Shown piece after piece: positions 2,331 through 58,734 of a stretch of 64,000 nucleotides of DNA. The notes below the pieces were generated by a model. It was not told where the DNA came from. It did no database searches and saw nothing but the letters and a program-made list of their open reading frames with translations. Every line of letters begins with the position of its first letter. Position 1 is the stretch's first letter. This stretch comes from Candidatus Poribacteria bacterium. Its GTDB lineage: Bacteria; Poribacteria; WGA-4E; WGA-3G. The stretch is from NCBI GenBank assembly GCA_028818705.1, contig JAPPNJ010000064.1, positions 1-64,000 on the forward strand. Reading direction: 5' to 3'. The position numbers and the translations under genes were made by a program.

Positions 2331-2811
2331 ATAGAAAACTTAAACCCCCAAATCCAAGTCAAACACAACACATTTTCTCGCTGGTCGTTCGGTTTTTGAA
2401 AAAAGTTAACATTTTGAAGATTTTAACACATATATATACTAAGGATCGGACAATTTTTCTAAAATTACCCAAGTTGCTACTAACAAATTTTGGATATTTG
2501 AACATAGTCTTTTCAAGGAGAAAGCAGACTTTGGCACTCCAGCGGAGTGCTATATCTATAGAAAAAGATGTATCCTAACCACCGCACTCCCGGAGAATGC
2601 CACACGGCATTCATACCCGGTTCATGCCCTAAGGCATGAATACCGTTGGTTCTGATTTCGGAGTGCTATGTTTACAAACAAGTGGCAACTTGCGTTAAAA
2701 TTCTGAAAAAATTGCGAAAATTACCCTAAACTTTTTCGGTTCATTACCTATATATAAGTATATAAGGCAAGGGTGGTTCATAAATCAGCTTATTCTGTAT
2801 GGAGGTGCATC
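2331..2811. repeat. Gene-free stretch with palindromic repeat (family A, long form)
   Basis: No convincing gene here; the 60-residue ORF is AT-rich and runs into the repeat. At 2536-2548 lies ACTCC-AGC-GGAGT, followed by GAATGCC-acac-GGCATTC and TTCATGCC-ctaa-GGCATGAA hairpins and a closing TTTCGGAGTGCTATGTTTAC near 2656-2675. The same order recurs at 5.7-5.87 kb with the first stem changed to GCCCC-AGC-GGGGC. The tail, 2690-2770, is AT-rich and may hold the kelch gene promoter. Confidence 0.65.
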
Positions 2812-5274: not shown

Positions 5275-6404
5275 TTTTCCGTAACAATAAGGGTACTCTT
5301 TCTACTTGCCCCGTTTATAACAATCATCTATTCTCTCTTTCCTGCTACCTGCGGGGAACCATTTTTCCTTGAATAGCAGTCCATTTTTTCCAACTTTCGG
5401 TAACCGAAAGCCGAAAATTGATAACCGACAACCCTTTTGTATCTTTTTTATTGACAGAAATTTGCATTTTTGCTAAATTTACATGAGTTTCATGCGATCA
5501 ACCTTTCAGTAAATCAACGGCCGATCGCGGTTGAAGGGGATAGAATCGTCTCTGAATAAGAATGTTATTTTTTTCTTGACCAAAAAAGCAAATTATTGTA
5601 TTAAGTACTAAAGTTTGGACAATTCGTATTAGATTCGGTTTCAGTTTCCGAAAATTCGCAGATTTTTCCGCACGTTTTCTCCAAGAACCCAACTCGGAAA
5701 AAAAGACATTTGCGATGCCCGGGGTACCAGCCCCAGCGGGGCGGCATGTCTACAGAAAATCATTCACCGACAGCAAGCAAGTCCCCGGGGAATGCCACAC
5801 GGCATGAATACCCGGAGAAGCCCACACGGGCTTCATACCGTTGGTTTGATTCTGATTTCGGGGCGGCATGTAGAGAAGTAATTTCTGTGAATGGTCTGAA
5901 GTGTTTTGTTTAACTATCACACGAAAACTTTTGAAAATTGTCCAAAGTTTAGTATTAATTAGTGTGATAGTTAAACCTACGGGCACTCTTTTACAGTATA
6001 CCACACACCAAAAAGAGTAGCCCATAGATTTAACACGCAAAATATTCAAGCATCTATATCTGCTTAACTGGCAACTTGCATCCGGAAATTGCAACTGTGT
6101 AAATTTCCAGGGAGGCGTTTTTATTTTGCGTCTGTTTGTTTAGACAGATTTGTTCCGAAAAAGTTTATTTTTTTTGATGCGGTTAAATTGCTATATATTC
6201 CGCGCAGACCACGCACTAAAATTTGGAAACGCGCGGATTGGATTAGAGTTATTTAACATGAGTTCCGTATTTGTAGCGCAAACTTTTAGTTTGCGACTTC
6301 TGGGACACAATCTGACAGATTCTGCAACAAGAACTCCGCAGATTCTCAAGAATACATCCAACACGTTTCTTAGGACTTCATTTATTGAAGTCACGTTAAA
6401 TTTC
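5275..6404. repeat. 1.1-kb gene-free stretch rich in inverted repeats
   Basis: No convincing gene; the 60-114-residue ORFs are repeat-derived. It holds: a sigma-70-like site TTGACA-N17-TAAATT near 5453; TACTAAAGTTTGGACAATT (5606-5624) and its inverted copy at 5936-5954 (one mismatch); a long-form family A repeat at 5716-5874 (GCCCC-AGC-GGGGC stem plus GAATGCC and GAAGCCC hairpins); a perfect 15-bp inverted repeat GTTTAACTATCACAC / GTGTGATAGTTAAAC (5908-5922, 5962-5976); and a TGTAG-type hairpin (CGCAAAC-TTTTA-GTTTGCG) at 6271-6295. Confidence 0.6.
5908..5976. repeat. Perfect 15-bp inverted repeat
   Basis: GTTTAACTATCACAC and GTGTGATAGTTAAAC are exact reverse complements separated by 39 AT-rich bases. 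The spacer contains the second arm of a wider inverted repeat whose first arm is at 5606-5624. It could be a mobile-element end, a cruciform or a paired operator. Confidence 0.75.
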
Positions 6405-15234: not shown

Positions 15235-15516
15235 TTTTTTATATAGTTGTCGGTTATTGGCTCGCTCCACTTCGTTCCGCTTTTAGCGGTTAGGTCGCTT
15301 CGCTGTTAGCAGTTAGTACCTGATTGCTGACCGAAATCAAAATCAACGGTATTCAGGTTTCCTTATAGGCATGTAATCAGAATCAACGGTATGAAGCCTG
15401 TGCAGGCTTCACCGGGTATAAAGCCTATAAAGGCTTTACCGGGGTATGAAGCCCGTGTGGCTTTCCCGGACTGCTGACTGCTAAAACTCTGATAACTATT
15501 CAAAAGGAAGAAAACA
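15235..15516. repeat. Palindromic repeat block (family A, tandem hairpins)
   Basis: From 15335 to 15470 the flanks AATCAACGGTAT and ACCGGG are repeated around changing stems: GAAGCCTG-tg-CAGGCTTC, AAAGCCT-ataa-AGGCTTT and GAAGCCC-gtgt-GGCTTTC. CTGCTGACTGCTAAAACTCT then leads into the threonine synthase gene. 15250-15330 is a degenerate CGCTTCGCTGTTAGCAGTTA repeat. Confidence 0.7.
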
Positions 15517-17479: not shown

Positions 17480-17556
17480 AGCCCAGGGAATGCCCGGGGA
17501 AGCCCATACGGGCTTCATACCGTTGATTTACGGCATTCATACCGTTGATTAGGTGA
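17480..17556. repeat. Palindromic repeat (family A)
   Basis: GGGAATGCCCGGGGAAGCCC-atac-GGGCTTC-ATACCGTTGATT, then CGGCATTCATACCGTTGATT: reverse-orientation copies of the AATCAACGGTAT flank. Confidence 0.65.
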
Positions 17557-20021: not shown

Positions 20022-20465
20022 TATGACCCAAGTTGCTATGGACCAGGTTTTAGGTCTACAGGTGCCGCTTTTCAATCATTATTCGGAGGTTTTCGTAGCG
20101 TGAACTTTTATGGTGAATCCTAAAAACAAGTAGCCATATTTGTAGCATAAACTGTCAGTTTGTGCCACCCGGAAGAAGACTAACGGATTTCTTCTTGCTG
20201 TAGGAGCGAGTGTTTTTGCGAATCAACACGGAATGCGCGTAAATCAGAATCAAAATCAACGGTATGAATGCCTTATAGGCATTCACCGGGTATGAAGCCC
20301 ATATGGGCTTCCGAATCAACGGTATCTATGCCTGTGGGCATAGACCGGGGTATGAATGCCTTAATGGCATTCCCCGGCCTCGCAGTGAGAGTCCGTGGGG
20401 TGTTTCCCCATGCTCGTGATACTTTAGTGATGCCATTCTTGGATCAATAAAGGAAATTATTCTAT
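20022..20465. repeat. Dense repeat block after recD2
   Basis: No gene. TGTAG then CATAAACTGTCAGTTTGTG at 20141-20165; a truncated TGTAGGAGCGAG near 20200; AATCAACACGGAATGCGCGT at 20220; then a tandem of family A hairpins to about 20380: GAATGCC-ttata-GGCATTC, GAAGCCC-atat-GGGCTTC, CTATGCC-tgtg-GGCATAG, GAATGCC-ttaat-GGCATTC, each with ACGGTAT / CCGGG flanks. The arms differ but stay self-complementary. Confidence 0.7.
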
Positions 20466-21404
20466 ATGCAATACAAACGCTTATTTCTTGCGATAGCCTT
20501 CTCATCAAAACCCCGGACTGGAGCCCCCTACCTTTAGGTAGTGGGAGGAAAGTCCGCCCTCTTGGAAAAGACCAAAACATGAAAAATATATTTGATGTTC
20601 AGTCCAAAATGTTGTATACTCTTTATACCAGTTGGCAGACATATCGAGCGTAGTCGCAAGGCTACGTGTCTGCCTACCCACTCGGTAGGGGTTAAAGACT
20701 GGTAGCTGGTAATACCTTCTGAGGATCAAACAGGACGCGCACTGATTGGTGCAACACCTCGCGAAATACCGAAAAAGCCATCCCTGACGGTTGATGTCAA
20801 TGCTGATGGAAAGGTAAACAAAACCGATTTATTGCGCGTCGTGAATGCGCTTGGTAAGAAAGCAACCCCTAAAATGTGCACAGATGTTAACACAGATGGG
20901 GTTGTAGATGTCGCTGATCTACTGCTTGTTATTGAGCACTTGGACAACCCGAAAAATGCTGCGGCACCCACGAGTCAAGATATCTTAGTTTTGTTGAATC
21001 CTGCGATACTTTCAGGGCACCTATCCATTTTGCATACCCAAAACGACGGAACACTGAAGTATCAGGAGGCAATCGGTTTCCTGGAAAGTCTACTCGACGC
21101 AGCCTATCCCGAAAGAACGCTTCTGCATCCAAATTATCCAAACCCGTTCAATCCAGAGACATGGATACCCTATCAGTTGTCTCGACCTGCTGAAGTGACG
21201 CTGACTATCTATGCAGTAAACGGGAACGTAGTACGAACATGGGCGTTGGGGCATCAGCCTGCGGGGATGTATCACGGCAAAAGTCGCGCCGCGTATTGGG
21301 ATGGCAGAAACGCATTCGGTGAGGCTGTTGTGAGCGGCATCTATTTTTATACACTGTCTGCTGGAGATTTCAGGGCAACACGGAAGATGTTCATTCGGAA
21401 GTAA
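20466..21404 (+). pseudogene. Decayed secreted protein: signal-peptide start and dockerin plus sorting-domain end
   Basis: The 5' end keeps a ribosome site and a signal-peptide start (MQYKRLFLAIAFSS) but stops at 20533-20535 after running into a hairpin element. In another frame, open from 20706, is the C-terminal remnant: two dockerin-like repeats (VDVNADGKVNKTDLLRVVNA, TDVNTDGVVDVADLLLVIEH) and a FlgD-Ig/T9SS-like sorting domain (PNYPNPFNPETWIPYQLS ... GIYFYTLSAGDFRATRKM). The middle of the protein is lost. The sorting domain is of a type I associate with large Poribacteria exoproteins. The remnant cannot be exported as it stands. Confidence 0.65.
20510..20705. mobile_element. Probable IS200/IS605-derived non-autonomous element
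   Basis: About 200 bp flanked by hairpins: CCTACC-TTTA-GGTAG at about 20530 (reverse complement reads CTACC-TAAA-GGTAGG, the IS200/IS605 end layout) and CCTACC-cactc-GGTAGG at about 20672. No transposase. It separates the signal peptide from the C-terminal part of the pseudogene. Confidence 0.45.
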
Positions 21405-24122: not shown

Positions 24123-25265
24123 ATGAAAATTACTGCTATCAAAACCTTTATGGCGCGTTTTGGTAACCGACCCCGTGGTCTCATCAAAGTAGAAACGGAC
24201 GAAGGACTTTACGGCTGGGGTGAAGCCTACTCCACGGGTCCAGACCTCTCTGTTGAACCGATTGCTGACTACATCTTCGAGATGATTCAAGGGGAGGATC
24301 CGAGGCGAATTGAATATATAATGATGAAACTGCATCAGCAGTTCCGTTTCCCACCCGGCGGTGCCGGTCTTGCTGTCATTTCTGCTGTCGATCATGCGCT
24401 TTGGGACATCAGTGGAAAAGCTGCAGGCTTGCCCGTCTATATGCTCCTCGGTGGACATGCACGAGACCGCATCCGGGTCTACCGCGGCATCGGTGGTAGA
24501 GACGGCATTGAAGCCGCTGATCAGGCACGCAAACTTCATGAGGAGTGGGGATTCACGGCGTTCAAGACCAGTCCGTATCAGCTTGATCCCGACGCAGATC
24601 GGTGGGGACGCGTCTGCGATGCCGCTGCGATCTATTTTGAGCAGATTCGGGAAAATACCCCATCAGAGTGGGAGTTCGCCTTCGATCCACACGCCAAAAT
24701 CTTCGAGCCGATTCGCGCACTACAACTTGCCAATGCTCTTGCACCCTACGACCCGTATTTCTACGAAGAACCGCTCCGACCCGAGCACATCCCCGCGTGG
24801 ACGCGCTTACGTTCTCAGATGCAGGTACCACTCGCCACCGGAGAGTCTCTCTACACGCGCTTTGAGTTTCTGGACATCATCGCTGGGCAAGGTGCCGACA
24901 TCATTCAGCCAGACATCTGCATTTGTGGTGGGTTGTTGGAGATGCGTAAAATCGCTGCGATCGCCGAAGCGCACTACGTGAGTATTGCACCTCATAATCC
25001 GATGGGACCACTGGCAACGGCTGTCAATGTACACTTCGCCGCTGCAACCGCGAATTTCAAAATCTTGGAGTATCTCTTGCCTACCGAGACGGAATGGAAC
25101 GCTTGGGTAGACGAACCTTATCTGCCGAAAGATGGCTATCTGGAGTTACGAGACCGGCCCGGTTTGGGTGTAGAGGTGAACGAAGCAGCAATCACGGATA
25201 ACGAATACATCCATTGGCAGCGCACCTGTCCGATCCGCCCCGACGGCTCAACAGGCTATATTTAG
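24123..25265 (+). CDS. Enolase-superfamily sugar-acid dehydratase (galactonate dehydratase-like)
   Basis: Start at 24123, after GGAGG; the track start adds 11 residues. 380 residues. Active-site landmarks of the D-galactonate/mannonate dehydratase group: D188-P-H190 on one strand, Y-E-E-P at 214-217, A-T-G-E with E241, Q-P-D-I-C-I-C-G-G, and H291 in IAPHNPMGP. The HNPMGP segment and D-x-H pattern point to dehydration of an aldonic acid to a 2-keto-3-deoxy acid. Substrate not certain. Stands alone between repeat-bearing gaps. Confidence 0.87.
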   Translation: MKITAIKTFMARFGNRPRGLIKVETDEGLYGWGEAYSTGPDLSVEPIADYIFEMIQGEDPRRIEYIMMKLHQQFRFPPGGAGLAVISAVDHALWDISGKAAGLPVYMLLGGHARDRIRVYRGIGGRDGIEAADQARKLHEEWGFTAFKTSPYQLDPDADRWGRVCDAAAIYFEQIRENTPSEWEFAFDPHAKIFEPIRALQLANALAPYDPYFYEEPLRPEHIPAWTRLRSQMQVPLATGESLYTRFEFLDIIAGQGADIIQPDICICGGLLEMRKIAAIAEAHYVSIAPHNPMGPLATAVNVHFAAATANFKILEYLLPTETEWNAWVDEPYLPKDGYLELRDRPGLGVEVNEAAITDNEYIHWQRTCPIRPDGSTGYI

Positions 25266-25270
25266 GAATG

Positions 25271-25333
25271 GTTGTCAGTTATCAGTTGAATCAACGGTAT
25301 GAATGCCGTGTGGCATTCACCGGGTTGTCAGTT
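25271..25333. repeat. Family A hairpin nested in a GTTGTCAGTTATCAGTT repeat
   Basis: GTTGTCAGTTATCAGTT, then GAATCAACGGTAT-GAATGCC-gtgt-GGCATTC-ACCGGG, then TTGTCAGTTAAG. The outer repeat resumes after the hairpin, as if the hairpin had inserted into it. Confidence 0.65.
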
Positions 25334-25390
25334 AAGAGGATTCTGAAATACGTCAAAATCTCTCTTTAACTGAAAGCCGATCGCCGAGAA

Positions 25391-26869
25391 CTAATAACAA
25401 CGATGACTTGCGGCGACGTATGCTCGCAGATGTTTCAACGCGCTTCCGTCATCCATCACAGACTGTGCCCGTCTAAGTGCCTCTTCAGGCTCTGGGCAGA
25501 TTCCCAACAGATAGTCAACCATTGCTGTGTTCAACAGAATCCTATCGTAGATGTGTCCTTTTTCACCCGATAGGGCTGCTATACCCGCTTCCGCGAATGC
25601 TTCCGCGCTTACAACCTCTGGACGTGGACTCCGGGCATAGTTGAATCCATAAATTTTCGGATCTATATCCATCGCGAAGTCTTCACGTACCCCGTTCACG
25701 CGGTGGAAGCCTTGCGAATAGTTGATTGCCATTCGATCATGTATGGACGGTTTTCCGAGGCGCAGGGCATAATGACTTGTCCCTTCCTCACCCTTCACAG
25801 CGACGGCGGCATCGAGCCTGCGTTCCCACGCCAATTGAAGGAGCGGTTTCTCGTAGCCGATATGGTAGTAGCCGAGTACCATGTAATTCGCTTCCCGCGC
25901 TGAAAAGAATTGTTGTGCCTTCTCGGTTGCTGCCCAAGGTGGACGTTTCTTAATATGTACACGCAATTCACGCAAATCGTAAGCCGCTGGGCAATATTCG
26001 CGTTGACTGATATATCCGAACCCAATCGATTCGTCCGTAATCAGCGATGCGGTCTGTGCCAGCGATAAGCGCGTATTTGCACCGAGTACCTTCAAGATGG
26101 TCTCTTCCGTTACGCCATTCTTTGGTGGCATCGCATCCACGCTATGAAGAAGTGATGCTTCACCAAGAGCTGCACGCACCGCTGCTACAAAGAGCATCGG
26201 ACGAAAATAACGCGTTGCGCCATCATAAGGCTGTCCGAAGTGCGTCAACGTCTCAACATCAATGGGTTTGACCGCTTCATGTCCAAAAAATGCATCAAGA
26301 TAGCCTCGGACTTCCTCGTAGGTTTCGCGGTTCATCCGTTGTCCTATAAGCGCAGCGCCTTTAAGCGCAGGTTTTACATCATCGCTAAGGATGGCTTCAC
26401 ACATCTCGCGAGTTTCAACGTAACTTAAATGTTTTGCCCGTAAAATCTTTTCCAACGCGTTCACGACAACTGCTTCTGTTGGATTCCGTGACACATAGCC
26501 GCAATCGGGATTCATCAGATATTGAATTTCTGGCGGTAGTTGTTCTATGAGTGCCGAACGGTATTTGTGGAACGCTGCCTCCTCTGCCTGACTCCACTGT
26601 GTTGATTCTGGAAAATAGGCGCGGAGTGTCATCGCCGCGAAAAACGCCCCTATCTGCGCACCTGAAGCGGTTTCCCTTTCTGGGAGCCCACCGGCAATCG
26701 ACTTCAGAATCGTTTCAAGGATCGGCTCTGGTTGCGGTGAATCTGAGGGATTTATGCCTAACGGACGTGTCTGATGCGGTCCCGTACAAACTCTTGCCTG
26801 TGCCTCAAGCACGTCTATATTCGGTCCAGGATATACCGGCATGTATGCGTGAGAGTCAAAATCTTCCAT
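25391..26869 (-). CDS. TrpD-like (anthranilate phosphoribosyltransferase family) protein
   Basis: 492 residues, longer than TrpD (about 340). The central and C-terminal parts resemble glycosyltransferase family 3: ILSDDVKPALKGAALIGQRM in the helical domain, and LGANTRLSLAQTASLI, GFGYISQREYCPAAYDLREL, KPLLQLAWERRLDAAVAVKG and DRILLNTAMVDYLLG in the catalytic one. The canonical TrpD GTGGD and HGNR loops are not seen, so activity on anthranilate is doubtful. An N-terminal extension of about 90 residues is unrecognised. GGAGG precedes the ATG. Not next to other tryptophan genes. Confidence 0.65.
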   Translation of the reverse strand: MEDFDSHAYMPVYPGPNIDVLEAQARVCTGPHQTRPLGINPSDSPQPEPILETILKSIAGGLPERETASGAQIGAFFAAMTLRAYFPESTQWSQAEEAAFHKYRSALIEQLPPEIQYLMNPDCGYVSRNPTEAVVVNALEKILRAKHLSYVETREMCEAILSDDVKPALKGAALIGQRMNRETYEEVRGYLDAFFGHEAVKPIDVETLTHFGQPYDGATRYFRPMLFVAAVRAALGEASLLHSVDAMPPKNGVTEETILKVLGANTRLSLAQTASLITDESIGFGYISQREYCPAAYDLRELRVHIKKRPPWAATEKAQQFFSAREANYMVLGYYHIGYEKPLLQLAWERRLDAAVAVKGEEGTSHYALRLGKPSIHDRMAINYSQGFHRVNGVREDFAMDIDPKIYGFNYARSPRPEVVSAEAFAEAGIAALSGEKGHIYDRILLNTAMVDYLLGICPEPEEALRRAQSVMDDGSALKHLRAYVAASHRCY

Positions 26870-47728: not shown

Positions 47729-47764
47729 GAATCAACGCCGAAAGCGCGTATGGCTTTCGGCGGG
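47729..47764. repeat. Family A repeat copy
   Basis: GAATCAACGCC-GAAAGC-gcgtat-GGCTTTC-GGCGGG: same flank, another self-complementary arm pair. Confidence 0.7.
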
Positions 47765-48992: not shown

Positions 48993-49420
48993 GAGATTCC
49001 TCCGAAATTCGCTTTAAGACTTTAGCAGGTGTCATAGTCTTATTATATCACTTCTACAGAAAGATACAAGATAGAATAATGTAAAGCAAAGACAAATTTT
49101 GCCGCGTGAATCAGAATCAAAATCAACGGTATGAATGCCTGATGGCATTCAAAATCAGAATCAAAATCAACGGTATGAAGCCCGTATGGGCTTCACCGGG
49201 TATGAATGCCTTAGGGGCATTCACCGGGTATAAAGCCTATAAAGGCTTACCGGGGTATGAAGGACTTCAAATCATTCTCACTGCGAAGCAAGAATGCGCG
49301 TGTGGCATTCTGCGGGGTATGAATGCCTTAATGGCATTCCGAATCAACACGGAGTGCGCGTGTGGCATTCCGAATCAACACGGAATGCGCGTGTGGCATT
49401 CCGTGGGGGCAAAATTTGGA
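48993..49420. repeat. Longest family A repeat array plus reverse TTTGTCTTTGCTTTACA unit
   Basis: No gene; the 110-residue ORF is repeat. 49078-49098 is a reverse copy of AAATTTGTCTTTGCTTTACA. From 49107 come tandem hairpins: GAATGCC-tgat-GGCATTC, GAAGCCC-gtat-GGGCTTC, GAATGCC-ttagg-GGCATTC, AAAGCCT-ataa-AGGCTTA, then three CGGAATGCGCGTGTGGCATT-type copies to 49405. About 300 bp of near-continuous palindromes. Confidence 0.75.
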
Positions 49421-50081: not shown

Positions 50082-50215
50082 TAAATCAACAGTATGAATG
50101 CCTTAGGGCATTCACTGGATAACAATCTTCGCAAACTTGGGATATTCCAGGGAGGGGTAAATTGTTACAGAGCACCTCTTAACTAAAAACCGATAACTGA
50201 AAACTGAAAACTACT
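50082..50215. repeat. Family A hairpin and CTGATAACTGA-like repeat
   Basis: AATCAACAGTAT-GAATGCC-ttag-GGCATTC-ACTGG (50083-50117), then AACCGATAACTGAAAACTGA-type sequence just before the ABC permease. Confidence 0.65.
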
Positions 50216-58400: not shown

Positions 58401-58734
58401 AAAATTCTCCATGTTGAAAGAGATTTGATACTAAATTTGTTGCGAGGTGTGGGGCTCGCGTGCCAGGACACATTATAGTAGATTTTGCGATCGCTGAACC
58501 ATTGTGGATATAGACCTGGCGAGGTTAGAATGCACGTCGCATGAAGAAGAAAAGCGCGTAAATCAGAATCAACGGTATGAATGCCCTAATGGCATTCCCC
58601 GGGTATAAAGCCTATAAAGGCTTTACCGGGGTATGAAGCCCTTATGGGCTTCACCGTATGGCATTCCCCGGGCTTTTCTTTGGACTTTACGCCGCAAAAC
58701 CTCGCCTACCGATTAAAAAATAGGAGATAGGCGG
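58401..58734. repeat. Gene-free stretch with family A tandem hairpins
   Basis: 58550-58680: GCGTAAATCAGAATCAACGG TAT, then GAATGCC-ctaat-GGCATTC, AAAGCCT-ataa-AGGCTTT, GAAGCCC-ttat-GGGCTTC with CCGGG spacers. Bases 58401-58540 show nothing else beyond a short GGCGAGGTTAG repeat fragment. Confidence 0.7.

Follow-up and report, generated by a model that had tools for sequence, protein, structure and literature searches.

The 64,000-nucleotide window analysed here belongs to a metagenome-assembled genome (MAG) of a sponge-associated Candidatus Poribacteria bacterium (G000; 6.04 Mb in 232 contigs), which carries hundreds of copies of a DNA hairpin of about 35 nt, hereafter family A. The tandem hairpins described in the initial annotation around 49.1-49.4 kb are confirmed. 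All ten family A sites of the window are intergenic according to the ORF coordinates and, as had been noted, no transposase is present among the 45 ORFs scanned with Pfam. The closest relative used for comparison, G052, is about 95% identical to G000 across the window.

Table 1. Family A hairpins, related hairpins and their host palindromes in the window.
Positions	Strand	Feature	Basis
2584-2590 and 2660-2666		Arms of the GCACTCC/GGAGTGC REP around the 2591-2659 pair	sequence
2591-2659	-	Family A pair, stems GAATGCC and TTCATGCC, replacing the triloop of a GCACTCC/GGAGTGC REP	sequence
5786-5859	-	Family A pair, stems GAATGCC and GAAGCCC, ahead of GGGGCGGCATG of another REP	sequence
15334-15469	+	Family A array, stems TCAGG-variant, GAAGCCT, AAAGCCT, GAAGCCC	
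17481-17550	-	Family A hairpin whose loop holds a second family A element; array missing in G052	
20241-20379	+	Family A array, stems GAATGCC, GAAGCCC, CTATGCC, GAATGCC, inside a AATCAACACGGAATGC hairpin remnant	
25289-25323	+	One family A element, GAATGCC-GTGT-GGCATTC; G052 has a near-clean empty site	
47730-47764	+	Related class: AATCAAC, 10-bp stem CGCCGAAAGC, GCGTATG loop; common to G052	
49093-49103	+	Host hairpin left arm CAAATTTTGCC, with the 49107-49411 array in its loop	sequence
49107-49411	+	Array combining family A hairpins (stems GAATGCC, GAAGCCC, AAAGCCT) with hairpins of the related 10-bp-stem class and AATCAR tail repeats	
49408-49418	+	Host hairpin right arm GGCAAAATTTG	sequence
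50084-50118	+	Degenerate single element AATCAACAGTAT	
58518-58526	+	Host GTAG-type REP left arm GGCGAGGTT	sequence
58560-58668	+	Family A array nested in a AAGAAAAGC hairpin, itself within a GTAG-type REP	
58698-58706	+	Host GTAG-type REP right arm AACCTCGCC, then CTAC (complement of GTAG)	sequence

The family A unit reads AATCAA-CGG-TAT, 7-bp stem, loop of 4-5 nt, returning stem, A-CCG(G). Its AATCAA head is unpaired; CGG pairs with CCG in a basal stem of 3 bp, which an asymmetric internal loop (TAT/A) separates from the 7-bp apical stem. The main apical stems fall into about eight discrete types: GAATGCC, GAAGCCC, AAAGCCT, TCATGCC, GAAGTCC, CTATGCC, GAATGCT and GAAGTGC. Within arrays, linked modules start with CCGGG(G)TAT in place of AATCAACGGTAT. 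Folded as single-stranded DNA, both strands reach about -10 kcal/mol, with z-scores of about -4 to -6. In a related class, found at 47.7 and 49.37 kb, AATCAAC precedes a stem of 10 bp that closes a GCGTRT loop. The initial annotation had listed at least nine sites; the 47.7 kb and last 49.3 kb hairpins belong to this related class and not to the GGTAT type. Those at 2.6 and 5.8 kb are family A with the head reading corrected to AACCAACGGTAT, and the degenerate site at 50084 is added.

Covariation was analysed on 63 units, 40 of them distinct. Paired bases occupy 98.2% of the apical-stem cells, and 62 both-sided changes were counted against 17.4 ± 2.9 in shuffled alignments, with a single one-sided change. 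The both-sided changes are distributed over 6 of the 7 apical-stem pairs, and the covariation score is 0.454 compared to 0.113 for shuffled alignments and at most 0.078 with partners slid. The dispersed palindromic family with paired arm changes that the initial annotation had proposed is thus borne out, as is the complementarity of the arms beyond chance. Its constant flanks hold for the 5' head, while the 3' flank varies (ACCGG, CCCGG, ACCGC and others). As the aligned units were selected by their exact head, the constancy of the head in the alignment is by selection, and the evidence for it is the genome-wide count: AATCAACGGTAT has 383 exact matches in G000, against 1 for the reversed-pattern control.

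The conclusion that compensatory changes preserve structure is plausible but is not the sole reading. The near-absence of one-sided intermediates is also compatible with a concerted (quasi-palindrome or template-switch) change of both arms. Extended to the whole family, template switching between hairpins (quasi-palindrome correction) would grow palindromes and renew their arms with no dedicated enzyme. Such a process agrees with the scarcity of one-sided stem changes, with the small base losses at junctions described below and with chimeric left arms that recur, for instance GAAGGTTTCC facing GGCATTC. A defined unit is indicated, however, by the constant ends AATCAACGG...CCG at unrelated sites and by copies numbering in the hundreds. 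We regard template switching as an improbable account of the family as a whole; a replication mechanism may nonetheless be the source of the stem diversity. At L257-L290 (G017, G016 and G006) and at position 15350 of the window, GAAGGTTTCC and the further chimeric left arms GAAGGTTCTCC, GAGGTCTCCC and TCAGGTTTCC recur opposite unchanged right arms. The GGTTTCC of these arms is like the loop side of GTAG-type REPs and may derive from template switching between palindromes.

Within the window, the head AATCAACGGTAT occurs 10 times exactly and 19 times with up to two mismatches, compared to 5.95 expected; none of the shuffles reached 19. The further statistics draw on sampled loci together with 388 kb from G000 and 423 kb from G052. 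In the 388 kb of G000, which were picked for containing family A copies or Y1 genes, a perfect stem of at least 7 bp follows GGTAT at 92 of 1056 sites, and seven control pentamers gave 1 to 7. Among 38 genomes of the same genus, family A ranges from 0 to more than 150 copies per genome, the upper model-based counts standing for at least 150 since 150 candidates were scored per genome. Exact heads are few in other genera of the same order. Stem types are fewer in the sampled loci of other species, which form a small sample with some genomes biased to high scores. In an Rfam search with family A, no family reached its gathering threshold.

Insertion polymorphism, a check proposed in the initial annotation, was found between species by comparing many G000 sites with G052; a subset was interpretable. 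Five pairs are filled in G000 and empty in G052 (L061, L062, L063, L064 and 25.29 kb), and in four of these the element lies at the loop or the foot of a hairpin. At L063, G052 has the intact hairpin GACAAATTTTGCCGCGT^GGGGGCAAAATT, a host hairpin of the kind whose left arm lies at 49093-49103; in G000 the loop of this hairpin holds about 101 additional nt, inserted at GCGT^GG with no base lost or duplicated. A 33-nt single element stands at the 3' foot of the AATGCGCGTGTGGCATT hairpin at L062, the L061 element is likewise at a hairpin 3' foot, and that of L064 abuts the perfect palindrome GGTTTGC/GCAAACC. At 25.29 kb, a 33-nt single element replaces about 2 nt of G052. In the reverse direction, with G052 filled and G000 empty, L159 is interpretable and L154 is accompanied by a local duplication. 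The interpretable pairs lose 0-3 bases. They show no TIR and no clear target-site duplication produced by the element itself, and a classical TIR MITE was rejected on these grounds.

The remaining comparisons are of other kinds. The 49.1 kb array is absent from G052, where its flanks have diverged, and does not provide a clean empty site. L059, L067, L069, L070, L166 and L170 are absent with a larger rearrangement or too diverged to interpret, L067, L069 and L070 being among the diverged ones. The 50.08 kb site is occupied by different hairpins in G000 and G052 (a three-hairpin array in the latter) and absent in G022. One gene-upstream site is occupied in both G000 (L064) and G017 (L275) and empty in G052, the closest relative of G000; this pattern would correspond to repeated insertion at one site or to precise loss.

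Family A is therefore polymorphic between close relatives and, at the interpretable sites, lies in or beside pre-existing hairpins. This landing in hairpins, which the initial annotation had missed, is the unusual habit of the family. Copies are nested in the loops of GCACTCC-type (triloop) REPs (2.6 kb in the window; G040), in GTAG-type REPs and CCCCCTTATCAGGGGG palindromes, in other family A hairpins (17.5 kb in the window; L055 and L070) and in hairpins resembling IS200/IS605 left ends (G012; L299 and L301). Host palindromes of this sort recur in other species, in line with the reading favoured below. IS200/IS605 element ends were rejected as a source of family A, as the hairpins differ.

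We evaluated the tendency to enter hairpins from the flanks of the copies. When the flanks are rejoined, the reconstituted empty sites fold at -6.79 kcal/mol compared to -4.83 kcal/mol for nearby DNA (p=1.8e-6), and also fold better than sites with swapped flanks (p=0.0036); this is the third version of the flank-complementarity question, and these p-values are uncorrected for the two earlier attempts. Flanks pairing over at least 6 bp were found in 7 of 82 chains, against 1.4% in permutations. Loop insertions had been a minority in the earlier flank-complementarity tests, since many copies lie at hairpin feet and the outer ends of some arrays were missed. We tentatively consider that family A could be a hairpin-seeking minimal element of about 35 nt, whose landing site would be a DNA secondary structure and not a sequence. 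It would nest in many palindromes, its own and IS ends included, then be carried by its hosts, and its stem would diversify by concerted change of both arms.

Part of the copy number reflects such carriage. A count by eye over sampled loci of G017, G016 and G006 placed about 33 of the 38 true copies in a few recurrent host contexts. In G052, a 220-bp element (L169, 14001-14220) has a 12-bp TIR AACCCAAGTTGC, an ATTAA target repeat and two family A copies in REP loops, and its exact empty site is found in G000 (L248). As family A copies ride in larger repeated elements, copy number is not the number of independent insertions. These two observations would fit a family that is rarely or never self-mobile now, copied inside larger REPs and TIR elements, with numbers mirroring those of its hosts. 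We consider this unlikely, since the empty sites at L061, L062, L063, L064 and 25.29 kb lack the family A stretch alone, and differing stem types occur within one host context.

Two or more linked hairpins are commoner in chains that contain an AATCAR tail unit than in chains that lack one (33/14 versus 13/22, Fisher p=0.0036). This association, modest and no proof, is expected if insertion is serial at the foot: arrays would grow in this way, the old heads being left as AATCAR tail repeats. Short (AATCAR)n repeats at one constant end, the other end being variable, also recall 3'-tailed retroelements and hence spread through RNA by a retron, a group II intron or another reverse transcriptase. 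The reverse transcriptase domain RVT_1 (PF00078) was not found in G052, G012, G016, G023, G047, G040 and G022, several of which are copy-rich. A repeat derived from a retron or group II intron was set aside on this basis, and RNA-mediated spread in general, already disfavoured, appears very improbable.

We searched for an enzyme that could move family A. Y1 transposase genes are present in nearly all members of the genus, and family A lies near only 2 of 65 Y1 loci, these being part of all Y1 matches. The RAYTs that were examined closely are surrounded by palindromes of other kinds, GTAG-type and GCACTCC-type REPs, and the RAYT link suggested in the initial annotation is not upheld. The Y1 clade that accompanies GCACTCC REPs, with membership taken from bit scores, occurs more often in genomes with many copies (p=0.017, relatedness ignored); it was not found in G000, the genome richest in exact heads. 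No cognate family A transposase was found among these Y1 loci. RAYT-like genes at L054 (7600-8800) and L055 (4600-5300) are embedded in GTAG-type palindromes (GGTAGGCGAGGTTTCCCAACCTCGCC; GTAGGAGGGAACTCCGATTCCCGAC) and are apparently ordinary Poribacteria REPtrons.

Members of the IS110 and IS3 families are known to target REPs, and REP palindromes serve IS1397, IS621 and ISPpu9 as insertion targets (PMC1525189). The family A insertions might in principle be driven by such a sequence, of the IS110 type or another that targets REPs. The IS110 transposase (PF01548) is absent from all 38 genomes of the genus, with control genomes positive, which refutes the IS110 version and leads us to reject an IS110-derived repeat; we give any insertion sequence of this kind very little credence. 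Whereas IS1397, IS621 and ISPpu9 are full insertion sequences with transposase genes, family A is a 35-nt hairpin.

The reading we favour for family A, with a probability of roughly one half, is that of a REP-like palindrome, mobile but non-autonomous, whose tag is GTAT/AATCAA and which an HUH/Y1 transposase moves while it is folded as single-stranded DNA. Its architecture (folded hairpin, fixed foot, no duplication and hairpin targets) suggests that mobilisation is probably of the HUH/Y1 type. Family A would travel as a folded single-stranded hairpin, and a transposase of the IS200-RAYT type would read the invariant GTAT/AATCAA foot together with the hairpin shape. The foot would thus be fixed and the stem free to change as long as its arms match. 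Against this model, precise insertion is expected, yet some junctions lose a few bases.

TnpA_REP acts on single-stranded hairpins with a 5' tetranucleotide and, in one REPtron, a changed foot motif led to a changed cleavage dinucleotide (PMC8266576). By analogy, the GTAT foot of family A may be a lead. Like the GTAG REPs of REPtrons with TnpA_REP (RAYT), family A is an imperfect palindrome of small size that lies between genes, keeps its unpaired foot constant, occurs in clusters and in hundreds of copies and, as the covariation test indicates, conserves its hairpin while the stems vary. In contrast, its foot is AATCAA/GTAT (AATCAACG-GTAT in the aligned units) and not 5' GTAG/GTRG (or CGTC), no cognate RAYT flanked by its copies was found (2/65 Y1 loci), and it sits inside other palindromes. 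As tag and flanking genes both differ, family A is not a proven member of the RAYT/REP family. CGTC-tagged REPs are likewise tagged palindromes without an identified transposase (PMC3733652), but their tag, their stem length and the phyla that carry them are not those of family A.

Cyanobacterial small dispersed repeats are reportedly very small and mobile and also occur inside other repeats (Elhai et al. 2008); family A is likewise a very small mobile repeat, a likeness of general description and not of sequence. We know of no stem covariation in those repeats. Family A would be a mobile unit of very small size that targets a DNA fold. Related MAGs offer orthologous sites with and without the element on which its mechanism can be tested, and its paired changes preserve a natural record of the way in which palindromes keep their two arms matched.

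Two other features were noted in the window. TAACTGA/TCAGTTA-type repeats are present at 25260-25400 and at similar sites; similar repeats are described from Beggiatoaceae and cyanobacteria (PMC4679880). Positions 20524-20667, which contain GAGGAAAGTCC, match the class A RNA of bacterial RNase P weakly, at 15.2 bits for a gathering score of 100, and are possibly a divergent or broken copy.
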